Below are positions 33,292-39,536 of a DNA stretch of 64,000 bases, piece by piece (the stretch's first letter is position 1; every line of letters begins with the position of its first letter). The notes beneath the pieces are model-generated. The model had not been told where the DNA came from, did not search any database, and saw nothing but the letters and a program-made list of their open reading frames with translations. Source of the DNA: Vallitaleaceae bacterium 9-2 (GTDB lineage: Bacteria > Bacillota > Clostridia > Lachnospirales > Vallitaleaceae). The stretch lies in the NCBI GenBank assembly GCA_038396585.1, contig CP121691.1:1860001-1924000 (forward strand). The letters run 5' to 3'. Both the position numbers and the translations under genes were made by a program.

Positions 33292-34194
33292 TTATTGTTC
33301 TCGTCTTAGACTATAATTTATATTAATGTCATCATCATTTTCATACACTTGATATTCGTTCCATATATTTTCTAATCGTTCCAAACTTTCCACAATTGTA
33401 TCTTTTTTACGCATAGATAAGGCTACAATGATAGCATTAATGACGCTTAACGGCGCAACTAAAGAATCCACAAACGAGACCATTTCACTTCGTGCCACTA
33501 AACTAACATCTGAAAATTGAACCATAGGAGAAATAGGACTATCAGTAATAGTAATAACACTACTTTTTCTTGATTGTGCATATTCCATGGCTTTTAGCGT
33601 TCGCTTGGAGTATCTTGGAAAGCTAATGCCAATCATAACGTCCTCATCGGATATACGATGAATCTGTTCAAACATTTCACTGACACTATTGGTATGGATC
33701 AACTTTACATTATCAAACATAAGATTAAAATAGAAGCCTAAGAAGCCAGCTAATGACGCACTGCTTCGAACGCCAACGATATATATAGTCTTGGCATCCA
33801 TTATATAGTCGATTGCTTTATTAAATTGATCATTATCTATTTCTTCTAAAGTAACCTTTATCTTTTCCATATCTGCATGCAAGACATGTTTTAATATTTG
33901 ATCTTGATCTATGCGATCTGAGGTTACATTGACACGCTGAATTGAAGTTAGTTTGTTTTTAACCAGCTCTTCCAATGCCCGCTGTAATTTTGGATATCCG
34001 TCATACCCCAATTCATTTGCAAAGCGTACCACTGTAGACTCACTGACACCAACAATAGTACCTAATTTTGCAGCAGTTAAAAAAACCGCTTTTTCATAAT
34101 GGTTCGATATATAATCTGCAAGCAGCTTTTGACCTTTACTTAATTGGTTGTAATGGGAATTTATCCGTTTAATTAAATCATTTTGTCGTGACAT
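33292..34194 (-). CDS. RpiR/MurR-family transcriptional regulator
   Basis: The 300-residue protein has an N-terminal RpiR-type helix-turn-helix (residues 1-75, including KLGTIVGVSESTVVRFANELGY) and a C-terminal SIS sugar-isomerase-like domain (TIYIVGVRSSASLAGFL). Such regulators respond to phosphosugars or related ligands. No sugar genes are adjacent; the nearest unit upstream is the Na+ decarboxylase operon, which ends at a terminator before this gene. AGGAGG precedes the ATG at 34194. It has its own promoter at 34277-34305. Confidence 0.92.
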   Translation of the reverse strand: MSRQNDLIKRINSHYNQLSKGQKLLADYISNHYEKAVFLTAAKLGTIVGVSESTVVRFANELGYDGYPKLQRALEELVKNKLTSIQRVNVTSDRIDQDQILKHVLHADMEKIKVTLEEIDNDQFNKAIDYIMDAKTIYIVGVRSSASLAGFLGFYFNLMFDNVKLIHTNSVSEMFEQIHRISDEDVMIGISFPRYSKRTLKAMEYAQSRKSSVITITDSPISPMVQFSDVSLVARSEMVSFVDSLVAPLSVINAIIVALSMRKKDTIVESLERLENIWNEYQVYENDDDININYSLRREQ

Positions 34195-34276
34195 AATTTC
34201 CTCCTGCACAATGCACGTTTTCCTTCAATTATATGAAAAATGAATGAAAGACCTTTTCATCTTTCAATATTTTTCT

Positions 34277-34305
34277 ATTATAGCCTACAAATTATGAATT
34301 TACAA
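34277..34305 (-). promoter_or_regulatory. Promoter of the RpiR-family gene
   Basis: The minus strand shows TTGTAA (34300-34305), 17 bases, then TATAAT (34277-34282). It lies between the oadA terminator and the regulator, in a gap of about 210 bases that otherwise holds only AT-rich leader. Confidence 0.75.
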
Positions 34306-34348
34306 GGCTATATTTTCAAAAAAATGAATACTTTTTTTGGGTTTACGT

Positions 34349-34381
34349 CAAAAAATAGCACCTCAAATGTGAGATGCTATT
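34349..34381 (-). terminator. Intrinsic terminator of the oadA operon
   Basis: On the minus strand AATAGCATCTCA pairs with TGAGGTGCTATT (one G-U pair, loop of four), followed by TTTT. It lies about 20 bases past the oadA stop. Confidence 0.85.
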
Positions 34382-34403
34382 CGTAGATTATTGAATCCGC
34401 AAT

Positions 34404-35816
34404 TTATACCGGATACGCCTTATGTTGTATACCTGGTTGTTTAGGGTCAACTTTCGACTGTTGCGCTTCACGATACTCAAAATATTCTTTGGCAACTTGT
34501 GGGAAAAGCGCATAGGATAAAACATCTTCATCTTGTTGCGCCCATCGCATCGTTTCTTTTCGCAATGGCTCTAGTTCTGGCGCAAGCAAATCTGCCGGTC
34601 TACACGTTATGGTTTCTTCATCACCGATAATTTTATTTTTTATCTCTGTAGAAATCTCCATAGGTGTTCTTCCGTACTCCCCGCGAACTAACGCTTTGGA
34701 TTCTTTGGAAATCATCTTGTAACGTTCACCACCAAGGACATTAAGAACCGCTTGGGTTCCAACAATCTGACTCGAAGGCGTAACTAACGGCGGATAACCA
34801 AAATCTGAACGTACACGCGGTATTTCTTCCAAGACATCATAAAATTTATCGCTGGCCCCTTGCTCATTTAGCTGGCTAACAAGATTAGACAACATACCAC
34901 CTGGAACTTGGTATAACAACGTTTTTATGTTAACGCCAAGTATTTTAGAGCTTAACAAGCCACTTTCTAATGCGTTTTCACGAATCGGTCTAAAGTAATC
35001 TGCAATCTCTGCAAGAAGTGTTTCATCAAGCCCTGTGTCATAAGGTGTTCCCTTAAATGTTTCGACCATTACTTCCGTTGCTGGTTGTGCAGTTCCCATC
35101 GAAAAAGGACTCACTGCACAATCAATAATATCTGCTCCCGCTTCAACTGCTTTTAGGTAAGCCATACTCGCAACTCCTGAAGTATAGTGGGAATGTACTT
35201 GAAGTTCCAAATCCGTCACTTCTTTTATTTTTGTTACAAGCTTTGTTGCTTCATAGGGTACAAGTAATCCTGCCATATCTTTAATACAAATTGAATCTGC
35301 ACCCATATCTTCAATACGCTTTGCCAATTCAGCATAATAGTCGATTGTATGAAAGTCAGATAACGTGTATGCAATGGCCACTTGTGCATGTCCACCTTCA
35401 CGTTTGGTTGCATCAAGTGCTGTTTTAACATTTCGCATGTCATTAAGTGCATCAAAGATTCGAACAATATCAATACCATTTGCAATAGCTTTTTGGACAA
35501 AATACTCAACCACATCATCGGCATAATGACGATATCCTAATAAGTTTTGCCCCCGTAAAAGCATTTGCATTTTTGTGTTTTTAAAACCACCTCGTAGTAA
35601 TCGTAAGCGTTCCCATGGATCTTCTTTTAAAAAACGAAGACATGAATCAAAGGTCGCTCCGCCCCACATTTCAACGGAATGATATCCAACACGATCTAAT
35701 TTTTCAACAATAGGTAGCATATCTTCTGTACGCATACGTGTCGCAATTAGAGATTGATGGGCGTCGCGTAATATTGTATCTGTTATTTTAACAGGTTTTT
35801 TAATGAGTTCTGACAT
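34404..35816 (-). CDS. oadA: Oxaloacetate decarboxylase alpha-type carboxyltransferase (5S-like), no biotin domain
   Basis: This 470-residue protein is the pyruvate/oxaloacetate carboxyltransferase subunit. The TIM-barrel active site shows TILRDAHQS (metal Asp), the catalytic Lys in CIKDMAGLL, and VHSHYTSG with the metal-binding His pair. It stops after the PYC_OADA helical domain; the biotinyl domain is encoded separately at 37189-37557, as in transcarboxylase 5S or pyruvate carboxylase subunit B. GGAGG precedes the ATG. It is the last gene of the five-gene operon. Direction and partner substrate cannot be read from sequence. Confidence 0.94.
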   Translation of the reverse strand: MSELIKKPVKITDTILRDAHQSLIATRMRTEDMLPIVEKLDRVGYHSVEMWGGATFDSCLRFLKEDPWERLRLLRGGFKNTKMQMLLRGQNLLGYRHYADDVVEYFVQKAIANGIDIVRIFDALNDMRNVKTALDATKREGGHAQVAIAYTLSDFHTIDYYAELAKRIEDMGADSICIKDMAGLLVPYEATKLVTKIKEVTDLELQVHSHYTSGVASMAYLKAVEAGADIIDCAVSPFSMGTAQPATEVMVETFKGTPYDTGLDETLLAEIADYFRPIRENALESGLLSSKILGVNIKTLLYQVPGGMLSNLVSQLNEQGASDKFYDVLEEIPRVRSDFGYPPLVTPSSQIVGTQAVLNVLGGERYKMISKESKALVRGEYGRTPMEISTEIKNKIIGDEETITCRPADLLAPELEPLRKETMRWAQQDEDVLSYALFPQVAKEYFEYREAQQSKVDPKQPGIQHKAYPV

Positions 35817-35849
35817 ATTGACCTCCTTCTATAAGTCGTTTTTGTAACA

Positions 35850-37169
35850 TTATAAGTATAAGGATAAGAATACACCTGCAGCAACTGCAGAGCCTATAAC
35901 TCCTGCAACATTAGGGCCCATCGCATGCATAAGCAAGAAGTTCGAAGAATTTTCTTTTTGTCCTACTTTTTGCACAACACGCGCTGCCATTGGAACAGCA
36001 GATACACCGGCCGCACCAATCAATGGATTAATCTTTCCGCCAGATAATTTACACATAACCTTACCTAACAATACACCGGCCGCAGTCCCAAATGCAAAAG
36101 CCAAAAGACCTAAAATCAAGATAAAGAGCGTAGATGTGTTTAAAAAATCTGCAGCTCGAGTTGTTGCCCCAACTGTAATACCTAAGAAAATAGTAATCGT
36201 ATACATTAGTGGTCCAGAGGCTACTTCTGCTAATTTTTCCGTCACCCCAGATACCTTAATCAAGTTTCCAAACATTAACATTCCAATAAGTGCTGTTGTT
36301 GAAGGTAAAATCAAAATAACGAGCAACGTAACAATAATAGGAAAGAGTATTTTTTCAAGCTGTGATACCGGTCGTAATTGCTGCATTTTGATCATTCGCT
36401 CTTCCTTCGTTGTCAACGCACGCATGATCGGCGGTTGTATAATGGGAACCAAGGACATGTATGAATATGCAGCCACTGCAATAGGTGCCAGCAAATGTGG
36501 CGCTAGCTTAATCGCTGTATATATTGCTGTCGGTCCATCTGCACCTCCAATAATTGCAATGGATGCGGATTCGCCATTGTTAAATCCAAATGCCAACGCT
36601 CCAAAAAATGCTAAAAATATACCAAACTGCGCTGCTGCTCCTAATAAGAAGCTTTTAGGGTTTGCTAATAATGGCGCAAAATCTGTCATAACACCCACAC
36701 CCATAAAAATTAACGGTGGGAAAATTCCTAATTTATTTCCATAATAAATATAATACAATAGCCCACCAGGAATTTCTTTTGCGTGATCATAAAAATTCGC
36801 CCCGGTTTGGGATTCAAAGACAAGCGCAACTCGTGAAGCTACTTGTGTTAGACTTCCTTGAAATTCTTGGGTCACGCCCTCAAATGTCAATTGCGTAATA
36901 GGTCCATCCATAATCCCTGAAATAGGTAGATTAACTAAAAACATACCAAAAGCAATGGGCAATAAAAGTAATGGTTCAAATTCTTTTTTTATTGCTAAAT
37001 ACATAAGTATAAAAGCAATAATAATCATCAATAAGTTTCCAAGACTTCCGGAAAAAATATAGTTAAAATCAAACCCTCGATCCAAGTTCATATTTTGAAC
37101 AAACCAATTTATTCCTGAAGAATCTATAAACCTTCCAAAAGCCTCGGCGAGTCTTTCTAACATGTTCAT
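35850..37169 (-). CDS. oadB: Sodium-translocating decarboxylase beta subunit
   Basis: OadB/MmdB/GcdB is the membrane subunit that decarboxylates carboxybiotin and exports Na+. The 439-residue protein has about nine to eleven membrane segments. IGGADGPTAIYTAIKLAPHL carries the Asp of the ion path, and GAAGVSAVPMAARV is the second conserved half-helix. GGAGG lies eight bases before the ATG. It is the only clear ion pump in the operon and could serve both carboxyltransferases encoded beside it. Confidence 0.95.
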   Translation of the reverse strand: MNMLERLAEAFGRFIDSSGINWFVQNMNLDRGFDFNYIFSGSLGNLLMIIIAFILMYLAIKKEFEPLLLLPIAFGMFLVNLPISGIMDGPITQLTFEGVTQEFQGSLTQVASRVALVFESQTGANFYDHAKEIPGGLLYYIYYGNKLGIFPPLIFMGVGVMTDFAPLLANPKSFLLGAAAQFGIFLAFFGALAFGFNNGESASIAIIGGADGPTAIYTAIKLAPHLLAPIAVAAYSYMSLVPIIQPPIMRALTTKEERMIKMQQLRPVSQLEKILFPIIVTLLVILILPSTTALIGMLMFGNLIKVSGVTEKLAEVASGPLMYTITIFLGITVGATTRAADFLNTSTLFILILGLLAFAFGTAAGVLLGKVMCKLSGGKINPLIGAAGVSAVPMAARVVQKVGQKENSSNFLLMHAMGPNVAGVIGSAVAAGVFLSLYL

Positions 37170-37188
37170 GAATAAATCCTCCCTATGC

Positions 37189-37557
37189 TTAGTTTAGAGA
37201 AGCGATTAAATCTCCTGCTTCTACTGCTTGGCCTGATGTCACATTAATACTTGCAACTGTTCCTGCACTCGGTGCAACAATTTCATTTTCCATTTTCATT
37301 GCTTCGAGCACAGCAACAACATCGCCCTCATTAACTGCATCACCAACAGCAACTTTAACAGAAACGATTTTTCCTTGCATCGGAGCTTCTAAAAGGGTGT
37401 CTCCATTACCGGTAGATGGGCTTGCTTGAGCAACAGGGTTTGACGGCGCTACACTTTTTGTCGGTTGACTAACAGGAGCTATACTTGCTCCGCCGCTTAG
37501 TTCCTCAACATCCACCTCATATGTATTTCCATTTACTGTAACTTGAAATCTTCTCAT
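37189..37557 (-). CDS. Biotin carboxyl carrier protein of the Na+ decarboxylase
   Basis: The 122-residue protein has a short N-terminal strand domain, a Ser/Pro/Ala-rich flexible linker (residues 30-50), and a biotinyl domain with the attachment motif EAMKMENEI, Lys near residue 90. It would shuttle the carboxyl group from the carboxyltransferase to OadB. It is equivalent to MmdC/GcdC or transcarboxylase 1.3S. GGAGG precedes the ATG. Confidence 0.95.
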   Translation of the reverse strand: MRRFQVTVNGNTYEVDVEELSGGASIAPVSQPTKSVAPSNPVAQASPSTGNGDTLLEAPMQGKIVSVKVAVGDAVNEGDVVAVLEAMKMENEIVAPSAGTVASINVTSGQAVEAGDLIASLN

Positions 37558-37568
37558 GGTAGTTCCTC

Positions 37569-37919
37569 CTATCGACTATATTGATTTTTGGTCGTAATAC
37601 GTCTAAATGATTTTACATGCAACTGATCCGTTGTTGTCTCTAATGAAGCAGCTATAGCTGCAGTAATAACAGCAACAAGTACTTCCTCCTCGTGTTTATC
37701 GGTAACTTCATGAGGTTTTTTTTCGACAACGGCTGTAATTTTTGATTGTTCGTGGGGATGAACAATTTCTCCACGCTTAATGTATTTGAATAAGGTAATG
37801 ATTAAGGAGATAAGGATTAAAATAGCAAATACAGTAGCCATACCGCTAATAAGTGCGATAAGACCTTCTTGTAAACGCTCTGATGTTGATGTTAAAAAAA
37901 ATAAATTATTAAAAACCAT
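37569..37919 (-). CDS. OadG/MmdD-type small membrane subunit
   Basis: The 116-residue protein has one N-terminal membrane helix (GLIALISGMATVFAILILIS, near residues 19-38), a charged middle, and a short basic C-terminus. This matches the gamma/delta subunits that assemble the carboxyltransferase with the membrane pump. AVITAAIAASLE is typical of the family. Sequence conservation is low, so the call leans on operon position as well as topology. Confidence 0.85.
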   Translation of the reverse strand: MVFNNLFFLTSTSERLQEGLIALISGMATVFAILILISLIITLFKYIKRGEIVHPHEQSKITAVVEKKPHEVTDKHEEEVLVAVITAAIAASLETTTDQLHVKSFRRITTKNQYSR

Positions 37920-37935
37920 GCTATCCTCGCTTTCC

Positions 37936-39459
37936 TTATATCGTACTATGTTTTCGATCTATATGAGGTACCCGTTTAGTATATAGCATTTCTAGCGCTA
38001 CTATAACACGCTTGCGTGTTGCGGCCGGTTCAATAATATCATCAATATATCCTCGACTTGCCGCAGCATAAGGAGAAGATTGCATATGTTCAAACTCTTC
38101 TTGTTTTGCATTTTTTTCTGTGCTTGTAAGCATTCCTTCTGAAATCTCATCGTTAAACATAATACGAACTGCACTCTTTGCTTCCATCATGCCTACCTGG
38201 GCACTTGGCCATGCAAGTACAACATCAGCCCCTACATGCTTTGAATTAAAGCTTACATATGCCGATCCATATCCACGATATAATATCAGATTGATTTTAG
38301 GAACACTCGCATGAATAAATGCATGGGTCATTTTTGCTGCCATTTTTGCTAATCCTTGACTTTCATCAGCACCTTTTGTAGCAAATCCTACAATATCTGT
38401 TAATGTAACCAACGGAATATTAAATCCATCGCAAAAAGACACAAAGTTCGTTACTTTTGACAATCCTTGTGCACTTAGTCGACCATCACCATCTTGCGTT
38501 TGATTTCCAATAAACCCAATGGTCATTCCATTCATTTTTCCAAATGCAACGATCACTTCTGTTGCATAATTTTGTTTTACTTCAATAATATGATTGTGGT
38601 CACTAATAGAAAGGAGGGCTGCTCTGCAATCAACTCCTTGACTAGATACTATAGAATTAAGCTCAGGAGAAACCCGGTTCAAATCATCGGACACTTGTTC
38701 AAATGGCGCTTCTTCTGTATTGTTGGCCGGTAAGAATTCAACAAGTTGACGCATATCTTGAATTAAACCCTGTTCATCTTGGCAAATAAAATCAACTAAA
38801 CCTGAAACCTCTAAATTATATTGTGCAGAACCAAAAGCTGTCGTATCTTTTGTATCATCATAGGTATTTGGACTATTGACAAACAATTGACCATTTTTAT
38901 CCGTTATAAATGTAAAGTCACTTAATCCGGCAATGATCGCTGCTCCACCGCCACATGTTCCCACAACACCTGTTATTTGAGGAATGACGCCTGAAGCCAT
39001 GGATTGCTTCATATAGATTTGCCCAATAGCATCTAAAGCATCAGTAGATTCTTGTAGCCTTAAGCCAGCGCTATCTAGAAGTCCAATGATAGGCGCTCCC
39101 ATTTTTATAGCCAAATCATATAGTGTAACTATTTTTTTTGCGTGCATTTCGCCAATGGCACCACCGACTAATGTAGCATCTTGACTATATGCATAAACCA
39201 ATCGTCCATTAATGGTTCCGTAACCTGTAACTACGCCATCAGCAGGAACGGTTTTTACATTCAAATTAAAATCTGTTGCCCGTTGCTGTACAAATGCACC
39301 GACTTCAACGAAACTATTTTCATCAAAAAGCTGCTGCATACGTTCACGTGCAGTTTTTTTGTTCATTGCATGTAATTGATCAACCGCTTCTTGTCCGCCT
39401 TGAAGTTCGATGTGCTTTCTACGAGTATGTAAATCATTTAACTTCTCTTGGAAACTCAT
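37936..39459 (-). CDS. mmdA: Acyl-CoA carboxyltransferase subunit (MmdA/12S-like)
   Basis: This 507-residue protein belongs to the crotonase-fold carboxyltransferases acting on CoA esters: methylmalonyl-CoA decarboxylase alpha, transcarboxylase 12S and PCC beta. Both half-domains are present; GTCGGGAAIIAGLSDF and AKMTHAFIHASVPKINLILYRGYGSAYV contribute the oxyanion holes. Methylmalonyl-CoA is the likeliest substrate by length and operon, but other CoA esters are possible. GGAGGG precedes the ATG. It opens the five-gene operon behind the promoter at 39508-39536. Confidence 0.9.
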   Translation of the reverse strand: MSFQEKLNDLHTRRKHIELQGGQEAVDQLHAMNKKTARERMQQLFDENSFVEVGAFVQQRATDFNLNVKTVPADGVVTGYGTINGRLVYAYSQDATLVGGAIGEMHAKKIVTLYDLAIKMGAPIIGLLDSAGLRLQESTDALDAIGQIYMKQSMASGVIPQITGVVGTCGGGAAIIAGLSDFTFITDKNGQLFVNSPNTYDDTKDTTAFGSAQYNLEVSGLVDFICQDEQGLIQDMRQLVEFLPANNTEEAPFEQVSDDLNRVSPELNSIVSSQGVDCRAALLSISDHNHIIEVKQNYATEVIVAFGKMNGMTIGFIGNQTQDGDGRLSAQGLSKVTNFVSFCDGFNIPLVTLTDIVGFATKGADESQGLAKMAAKMTHAFIHASVPKINLILYRGYGSAYVSFNSKHVGADVVLAWPSAQVGMMEAKSAVRIMFNDEISEGMLTSTEKNAKQEEFEHMQSSPYAAASRGYIDDIIEPAATRKRVIVALEMLYTKRVPHIDRKHSTI

Positions 39460-39507: not shown

Positions 39508-39536
39508 ATTCTACATAAGAAACTAACAAAAATCAA
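39508..39536 (-). promoter_or_regulatory. Promoter of the Na+ decarboxylase operon
   Basis: The minus strand shows TTGATT (39531-39536), 17 bases, then TAGAAT (39508-39513), in the 98-base gap between cls and mmdA. The boxes differ from consensus at two and one positions. Confidence 0.6.

Follow-up and report, generated by a model that had tools for sequence, protein, structure and literature searches.

An altered 12S subunit in a probable Na+-translocating oxaloacetate decarboxylase operon of a Vallitaleaceae bacterium

Introduction

What can a Na+-pump operon do that encodes two different carboxyltransferase-family proteins next to a single biotin carrier? This question is raised by positions 34404-39459 of a 64,000-nucleotide stretch of Vallitaleaceae bacterium 9-2 (contig CP121691.1, positions 1,860,001 to 1,924,000; hereafter the window), where the minus strand carries five open reading frames, MmdA-like first and then OadG, biotin carrier, OadB and OadA/5S, with intergenic gaps of 11–33 bases. 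The first encodes a 12S/MmdA-like carboxyltransferase-family subunit of 507 aa with altered active-site motifs (37936..39459; PF01039, 402 bits), and is followed by a small membrane subunit of the OadG/MmdD type (37569..37919, 116 aa; PF04277, 59 bits against a cut-off of 27) and by a separate biotin carrier (37189..37557, 122 aa; PF00364, 80 bits), which holds an EAMKMEN motif with the biotin lysine K88. The two remaining genes encode the predicted carboxybiotin decarboxylase and Na+ pump OadB (35850..37169, 439 aa; PF03977, 524 bits; TIGR01109, 480 against 190.6) and an OadA/5S carboxyltransferase without a carrier domain (34404..35816, 470 aa; PF02436, 188 bits). All five Pfam family scores exceed their curated cut-offs. 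An earlier note on this DNA had described a single operon in which two proteins of transferase families accompany one carrier, one OadG-type subunit and one pump, and all five reading frames are present as it described them.

The sequences make it probable, at a moderate level of confidence, that this operon encodes a Na+-translocating oxaloacetate decarboxylase (OAD) with a re-used, non-canonical 12S subunit. OadA would transfer the carboxyl group of oxaloacetate to the biotin of the free carrier, yielding pyruvate, and OadB would decarboxylate the resulting carboxybiotin and export Na+, while OadG would tether the soluble part of the complex to OadB. The MmdA-like subunit would be kin of the acyl-CoA transferase of a transcarboxylase, which occurs with or without a pump. 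In its intact relatives, this complex is proposed to interconvert oxaloacetate plus acetyl-CoA and pyruvate plus malonyl-CoA, where acetyl-CoA carboxylase (ACC) is missing.

The oxaloacetate decarboxylase subunits

OadA reaches the curated model PRK12331 'oxaloacetate decarboxylase subunit alpha' with 787 bits (cut-off 718); the full-length alpha model TIGR01108 is not reached (702.5 against 756.5), and the carrier domain is a separate protein here. The putative metal ligands of OadA (D18, K179, H208, and H210), which we take to correspond to those of the 5S and OadA structures, are invariant in all 68 rows of the set compiled from the order of the window. The carrier motif EAMKME is likewise invariant in 68 of 68 rows except at its A, which is found in 63. 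OadB holds D211, Y237, N381, G385, S390, R397 and N420 in 63 of 63 rows, and their spacing matches that of D203, Y229, N373, G377, S382, R389 and N412 of StOAD. A passage of PMC7274780 names these positions (Asp203, Tyr229, Asn373, Gly377, Ser382, Arg389, and Asn412) as residues of the pump, and states that Arg389 has no severe effect on decarboxylation. OadG narrowly misses TIGR01195 (35.1 against a cut-off of 36.05), although it passes PF04277 as given above. Since OadA, the carrier and OadB keep the residues that were checked, the components that a Na+-pumping oxaloacetate decarboxylase requires appear intact.

Like transcarboxylases, the operon combines a 5S-type subunit with a free carrier; unlike them, it includes a membrane pump, OadB. 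The curated 5S transcarboxylase model NF008984 is not reached by OadA (571 against 827 bits).

The same parts list would also serve the opposite direction. Na+ influx through OadB would then drive the carboxylation of biotin with CO2, OadA would make oxaloacetate from pyruvate, and the complex, working mainly in reverse, would replace pyruvate carboxylase. Dimroth and Hilpert reportedly observed in 1984 that the pumps of OAD and of methylmalonyl-CoA decarboxylase can run backwards, which is counted here in favor of this direction. It would also fit the rarity with which the operon and pyruvate carboxylase co-occur in the order: of the 67 genomes with the operon, one has a full-length pyruvate carboxylase, compared to 18 of the 79 without it (Fisher p 1e-4, uncorrected for relatedness). 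In the genome of the window, no pyruvate carboxylase was detected, the sole PYC_OADA match being the OadA of the operon. However, the mutual exclusion lies largely between families (f18 and f5), and the forward reaction is the usual direction of OADs. A mainly reverse operation is therefore considered unlikely, and decarboxylation of oxaloacetate with Na+ export stays the preferred reading.

The altered 12S subunit

The 12S subunit was compared with 12 canonical MmdA loci that lie outside such operons, five of them from genomes with methylmalonyl-CoA mutase. From these copies, together with what we take to be the known motifs of the family, 54 conserved positions were defined in six motif segments of our choice. 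One section of PMC5187497 (section 8) places the active site of the 12S fold between two monomers, and the motif segments fall roughly there. The window 12S keeps 23 of the 54 canonical residues (0.43) and has changed the other 31; among the substitutions are NSP for TGP (195-197), GSAY for GGAY (398-401), and GTCGGGAA for GPCAGGAV (167-174). Thus, the acyl-CoA transferase motifs of an intact 12S site are not kept in canonical form in this protein, which also stays far below the curated model TIGR01117 (508 bits, cut-off 998.8).

This condition is shared by all 66 copies scored in the order, which are altered, with a motif retention of 0.26–0.56, compared to 0.89–1.00 in the canonical copies, where it is high by construction. 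Outside the motifs, the window 12S keeps 68% of 145 other positions that are invariant in the canonical set, and the order copies keep a mean of 0.65. Retention is lower in the motifs than elsewhere in 66 of 66 order copies and in 35 of 35 altered copies from the wider class, as against 3 of 63 intact ones (both class groups are described below), which indicates that the motif segments were preferentially changed. The altered state is judged to be derived, because the motifs of the intact copies recur in relatives of solved structure from outside Clostridia, namely those of Thermotoga (1vrg) and Propionibacterium (1on3). A scan of genome contigs with the window 12S as query returned two relatives only.

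Loss of motif residues could also mean that the gene is decaying. Some genomes have shorter copies (384-465 aa), part of them at contig ends, which would agree with a pseudogene. Nevertheless, the frame is open in the window, and the ratio of nonsynonymous to synonymous substitutions (dN/dS) of the altered 12S is 0.02–0.11 in eight pairs, dS exceeding 1 in six of the eight. The MmdA-like subunit is under purifying selection and is a maintained protein, and the selection found leads us to reject the pseudogene reading as scarcely credible. Between the window and locus L005, dN/dS is 0.091 for the 12S gene, 0.032 for OadA and 0.023 for OadB. In the same comparison, the carrier has the highest value of the five genes (0.175), exceeding that of the 12S.

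Most motif positions have changed under purifying selection, which makes a structural or regulatory subunit the most likely fate of the altered 12S; an enzyme for another substrate is the less likely one. The latter would turn the operon into a working Na+-coupled transcarboxylase or dual decarboxylase, whose MmdA-like subunit acts on another acyl-CoA or non-CoA substrate, and in which oxaloacetate and that substrate share the carboxybiotin and the pump. This is a modified form of what the earlier note had suggested. Purifying selection would suit such an enzyme. The order 12S also has a conserved signature of its own, for example S196 and N405, which each occur in 66 of 68 rows. In the window protein, the N-domain GG (171-172) persists, so that catalysis is possible. 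Moreover, 33 of the 63 intact relatives come with a pump, and variants without OadB retain both transferases and the carrier. On the other hand, 31 of the 54 motif residues are changed. Of the N-domain pair, the second glycine stands in 49 of 68 rows and is replaced in some members (e.g., those with CMGV, CLGM, or CMGT), the operon persisting nonetheless. In altered operons, the 12S evolves much faster than the 5S: at a 5S identity of 65–70%, intact pairs have a median 12S identity of 0.68 and altered pairs one of 0.41. Finally, no candidate substrate is apparent. A catalytically active window 12S is accordingly given a low probability, and the first proposal, in which two transferases are both fully active and share one carboxybiotin, describes the intact relatives better than the window. 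That one transferase might be inactive, the outcome named beforehand as fatal to that proposal, is suggested by the 12S sequence, but not proven.

Methylmalonyl-CoA and acetyl-CoA carboxylase in the window genome

The window belongs to a genome (G000) assembled as one contig of 3.81 Mb. A methylmalonyl-CoA decarboxylase or a methylmalonyl-CoA:pyruvate transcarboxylase would be composed of 12S, 5S and carrier families that match those of the operon. However, the search for the mutase of that pathway gave no PF01642 match in G000 (it was aimed at the mutase alone), which leaves the operon without a detected pathway context for a methylmalonyl-CoA decarboxylase. Across the order, the mutase is found in 5 of 146 genomes, all five with a canonical MmdA; G066 is the only one of 67 operon genomes that has it, and there the mutase shares a contig with a canonical MmdA distinct from that of the operon. 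In the class sample described below, the mutase is found in none of the 98 genomes with a 12S-5S pair, compared to 25 of 245 overall, and lies within 8 kb of an MmdA match in 22 of these 25. Since neither TIGR01117 nor NF008984 reaches its cut-off either, this reading is considered very improbable, and it is rejected for the window on the missing mutase match and the lost motifs. Methylmalonyl-CoA, one of the substrates envisaged in the earlier note, is thus an unlikely one for this operon.

G000 carries an ACC gene cluster, in which AccC, the single biotin carboxylase match of the genome, adjoins AccD and AccA. AccD and AccA are open frames of 303 and 259 aa, and PF01039 matches only the AccD/AccA cluster genes and the window 12S. 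Consequently, the window operon lies outside the group of possible ACC-replacing transcarboxylases, which combine an intact 12S with the lack of AccA. Synthesis of malonyl-CoA by the operon of the window itself was considered and ruled out by the presence of the ACC genes and by the altered 12S.

Distribution in the order of the window

The order sample comprised 146 genomes, and 24 short loci (L001-L003 and L006-L026) were excluded from the synteny comparison. The operon, pump-less variants included, is found in 67 of these genomes. Five loci lack OadB (L043 and L081-L084) and keep the 12S, the carrier and the 5S; among the 12S copies of the order, some from L081-L084 rank with the most altered.

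AccA is present in 58 of the 66 operon genomes that were scored. A second, canonical MmdA accompanies the operon in five of the eight genomes without AccA and in 3 of the 58 with it (p 3e-4, uncorrected for relatedness). Two genomes from the family of the window, G048 and G115, illustrate this combination, as AccA was not found in them, the 12S of the operon is altered and a second canonical MmdA is present (L058 and L056, respectively). That of G048 sits in an operon of its own with OadG, a carrier and OadB.

Another 15 loci of the order (L105, L106, and L108-L120) hold an operon of OadG, carrier, OadB and OadA without an MmdA-like gene, and G116 carries both kinds of operon. These 15 loci rule out the idea that an MmdA-like subunit is required by every OAD of the order. 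Some of the OAD operons devoid of 12S have OadA as the first gene instead of the last. The 15 loci belong to a set of 19 stretches examined, and in the other four of these (L107 and L121-L123) OadA stands alone.

Intact relatives in the class Clostridia

The wider distribution was studied in 245 genomes of the class Clostridia, 11 of them from the order of the window and many of them drafts (for one, G318, a contamination of 11% is listed). A pair was defined as a 12S match followed by a 5S match on the same strand within 8 kb. Pairing covered the 12S of 138 genomes and the 5S of 129 genomes among the matches listed, setting aside the last 12 listed 5S rows, the partial second 12S pieces of G243 and G376, and eight genomes of the window's own order. 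At least 98 of the 245 genomes, all outside that order, hold such a pair: 56 with the complete series 12S-OadG-carrier-OadB-5S and 42 without OadB. The earlier note had asked for a conserved five-gene order in other Clostridia, which these 56 genomes provide.

The motif scores of the 12S copies form two groups, with 63 intact copies (at least 0.80; 24 family groups) and 35 altered ones. Intact 12S-5S operons are exemplified by L152, L170, L192, and L207. A pump accompanies 33 of the 63 intact copies, and these 33 genomes, with five genes and an intact 12S, are where the notion of a transcarboxylase plus pump fits; in the window, with its 23 of 54 motif residues, it is not supported. The intact form, which is widespread, resembles a transcarboxylase to which a Na+ pump may be added, in genomes where ACC is missing. 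Indeed, AccA (scored as present when PF03255 matched with E <1e-60, weaker matches being cross-matches to the 12S) is missing in 61 of 63 genomes with an intact copy and in 14 of 35 with an altered one (Fisher p 3e-10, uncorrected for relatedness), the other 21 altered operons being found together with AccA. Biotin carboxylase was undetected in 60 of the 63; of the three exceptions (G277, G192, and G315), the matches of G192 and G315 are frames of pyruvate carboxylase length. Among the intact genomes in a single contig, eight of nine lack both AccA and biotin carboxylase. Some biotin carboxylases may have been missed, as seven genomes with an altered 12S (G149, G155, G172, G196, G250, G316, and G320) have AccA and no detected biotin carboxylase; these may reflect missed carboxylases, or an AccA/AccD pair that takes the carboxyl group from the carrier of the operon. 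Based on this distribution, the intact operon is a candidate replacement for ACC.

The acyl-CoA substrate of the intact relatives is more likely to be acetyl-CoA. A further hint comes from position 402 of the window 12S, which aligns with residue 407 of the Methylorubrum PccB (6ybq) and which we take, through the motif GGAY(D/I), to be equivalent to the Streptomyces specificity residue D422/I420. This position is Ile in 62 of the 63 intact operon copies. In the canonical copies it is Leu in all five from genomes with the mutase, while the other seven have six Ile and one Leu. A part of PMC7835884 associates Ile at the D422/I420 site in Streptomyces with the acceptance of acetyl-CoA besides propionyl- and butyryl-CoA. 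Position 402 might thus be a marker separating acetyl-CoA from methylmalonyl-CoA enzymes, and would fit a malonyl-CoA role of the intact operons. The hint is weak, because a Thermobifida enzyme with Asp at the specificity site is also described there as promiscuous (PMC7835884).

Relatedness was addressed on a 5S tree of 180 rows, built with FastTree only. Its 16 rows labeled 'classical', which include L107 with OadA alone, are split on the tree, with 12 of them grouping together. The altered 12S state needs 11 changes on this tree, and AccA 25. Five independent contrasts of the 12S state could be drawn on well-supported branches; on average, 3.7 go the predicted way, none the opposite way and 1.3 show no difference. 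The link between the state of the 12S and ACC is consistent in its direction and is not significant after correction for relatedness.

From these data, a broader reading is put forward tentatively. The 63 of 245 Clostridia with an intact copy would make malonyl-CoA from oxaloacetate by a two-transferase complex, independently of ATP and, in 33 of the 63, linked to a Na+ pump with which the carboxyl group could be exchanged. The window operon would descend from this form, with ACC doing that work and the 12S being a selected, probably non-catalytic subunit. If so, the window would exemplify how a membrane energy converter can take over a subunit of an enzyme whose activity has become dispensable through another enzyme.

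Several observations weigh against the preferred interpretation, either for the window or for the class. The sign test on the 12S-state contrasts gives p 0.125, and, seen from the side of AccA, 21 contrasts comprise 3.7 that agree, none that oppose and 17.3 without difference. Two intact operons (G277 and G270) occur in genomes with AccA, and a borderline copy with AccA present (G155), at 43 of 54 residues, falls just under the 0.8 line. Conversely, AccA is lacking from the 14 of 35 altered class operons mentioned above and from 8 of 66 operon genomes of the order. OadB-less variants with an altered 12S exist in the class (12 of 35) as well as in the order (the five loci L043 and L081-L084), and a pure role in Na+ pumping does not account for them. 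To these are added the retained N-domain glycine pair and the origin of the motif segments, which rest on the canonical copies and a general published description and not on a structure of the window protein.

Comparison with known systems

The OadABG decarboxylases of Klebsiella, Salmonella and Vibrio resemble the window operon in the putative metal site of OadA, the seven residues of OadB and the OadG-type subunit. However, the window operon encodes its carrier as a protein apart and has a fifth subunit of 12S derivation. The transcarboxylase of Propionibacterium (12S, 5S, and 1.3S) shares with the window both transferase families, as matches to PDB 1on3 and 1rqb, and the free carrier; unlike the window protein, its 12S keeps the canonical motifs in the alignment. 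To our knowledge, it has no pump. As for the Na+-pumping methylmalonyl-CoA decarboxylase (MmdABCDE), its MmdA, OadG/MmdD, carrier and OadB/MmdB families are common to the window, which differs in lacking both the mutase context and the MmdA motifs. We know of no 5S partner in the classical form of this enzyme. An extra subunit is also found in the OAD of Enterococcus faecalis, where it is a small protein and is not known to be 12S-like. It is mentioned as an additional subunit in section 12 of PMC8100219.

A counterpart of the pump-less intact operons, by annotation, is the Clostridium thermocellum cluster Clo1313_1523-1526, whereas the window genome has ACC and an altered 12S. The relevant part of PMC5414155 assigns this putative transcarboxylase to the formation of malonyl-CoA in the model iCth446, and reports that OAD activity was not detected in the wild type. 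According to a passage of PMC5887222, a single C. thermocellum cluster includes genes annotated as a putative OAD (1523) and as the gamma subunit of a sodium pump (1525). Clusters of C. phytofermentans, C. cellulolyticum, C. thermocellum and Caldicellulosiruptor are labeled oxaloacetate decarboxylase in a portion of PMC3561251, and an excerpt of PMC4478896 predicts OAD in all 62 Butyrivibrio drafts. A five-subunit 12S-5S-OadB complex was not found described in the literature searched by title and abstract, a scope outside which most subscription papers fall. Within the literature found, the source of malonyl-CoA in anaerobes without ACC rests on an assumption in the single C. thermocellum model (PMC5414155). 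The operons reported here name a candidate enzyme, an optional pump and a distribution, and they make the question testable in cultivated species.

Flanking features

The operon had been credited with a promoter and a terminator of its own. The terminator is borne out by folding: a 13-bp hairpin (loop of 4 bases) and a U run occupy 34345..34382 on the minus strand, with a folding energy of -16.4 kcal/mol (z -5.8), although the terminator is absent from the list of a consensus scanner. The promoter fares less well, as the candidate TTGATT-17-TAGAAT (39508..39536, minus strand) matches the consensus at 9 of 12 positions, which is not above chance, and the region holds 23 promoter-like sites, compared to 24.5 ± 5.5 in shuffled sequences.

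The next gene downstream (33292..34209, minus strand) encodes an RpiR/MurR-family regulator with HTH_6 and SIS domains. Among the 58 order loci that have 2.5 kb or more of flanking sequence, 30 have a relative of it on the same strand within 1.5 kb after OadA, suggesting it as a possible regulator of the operon. A second, weaker hairpin (34270-34330, z -2.9) overlaps the promoter region of this gene.

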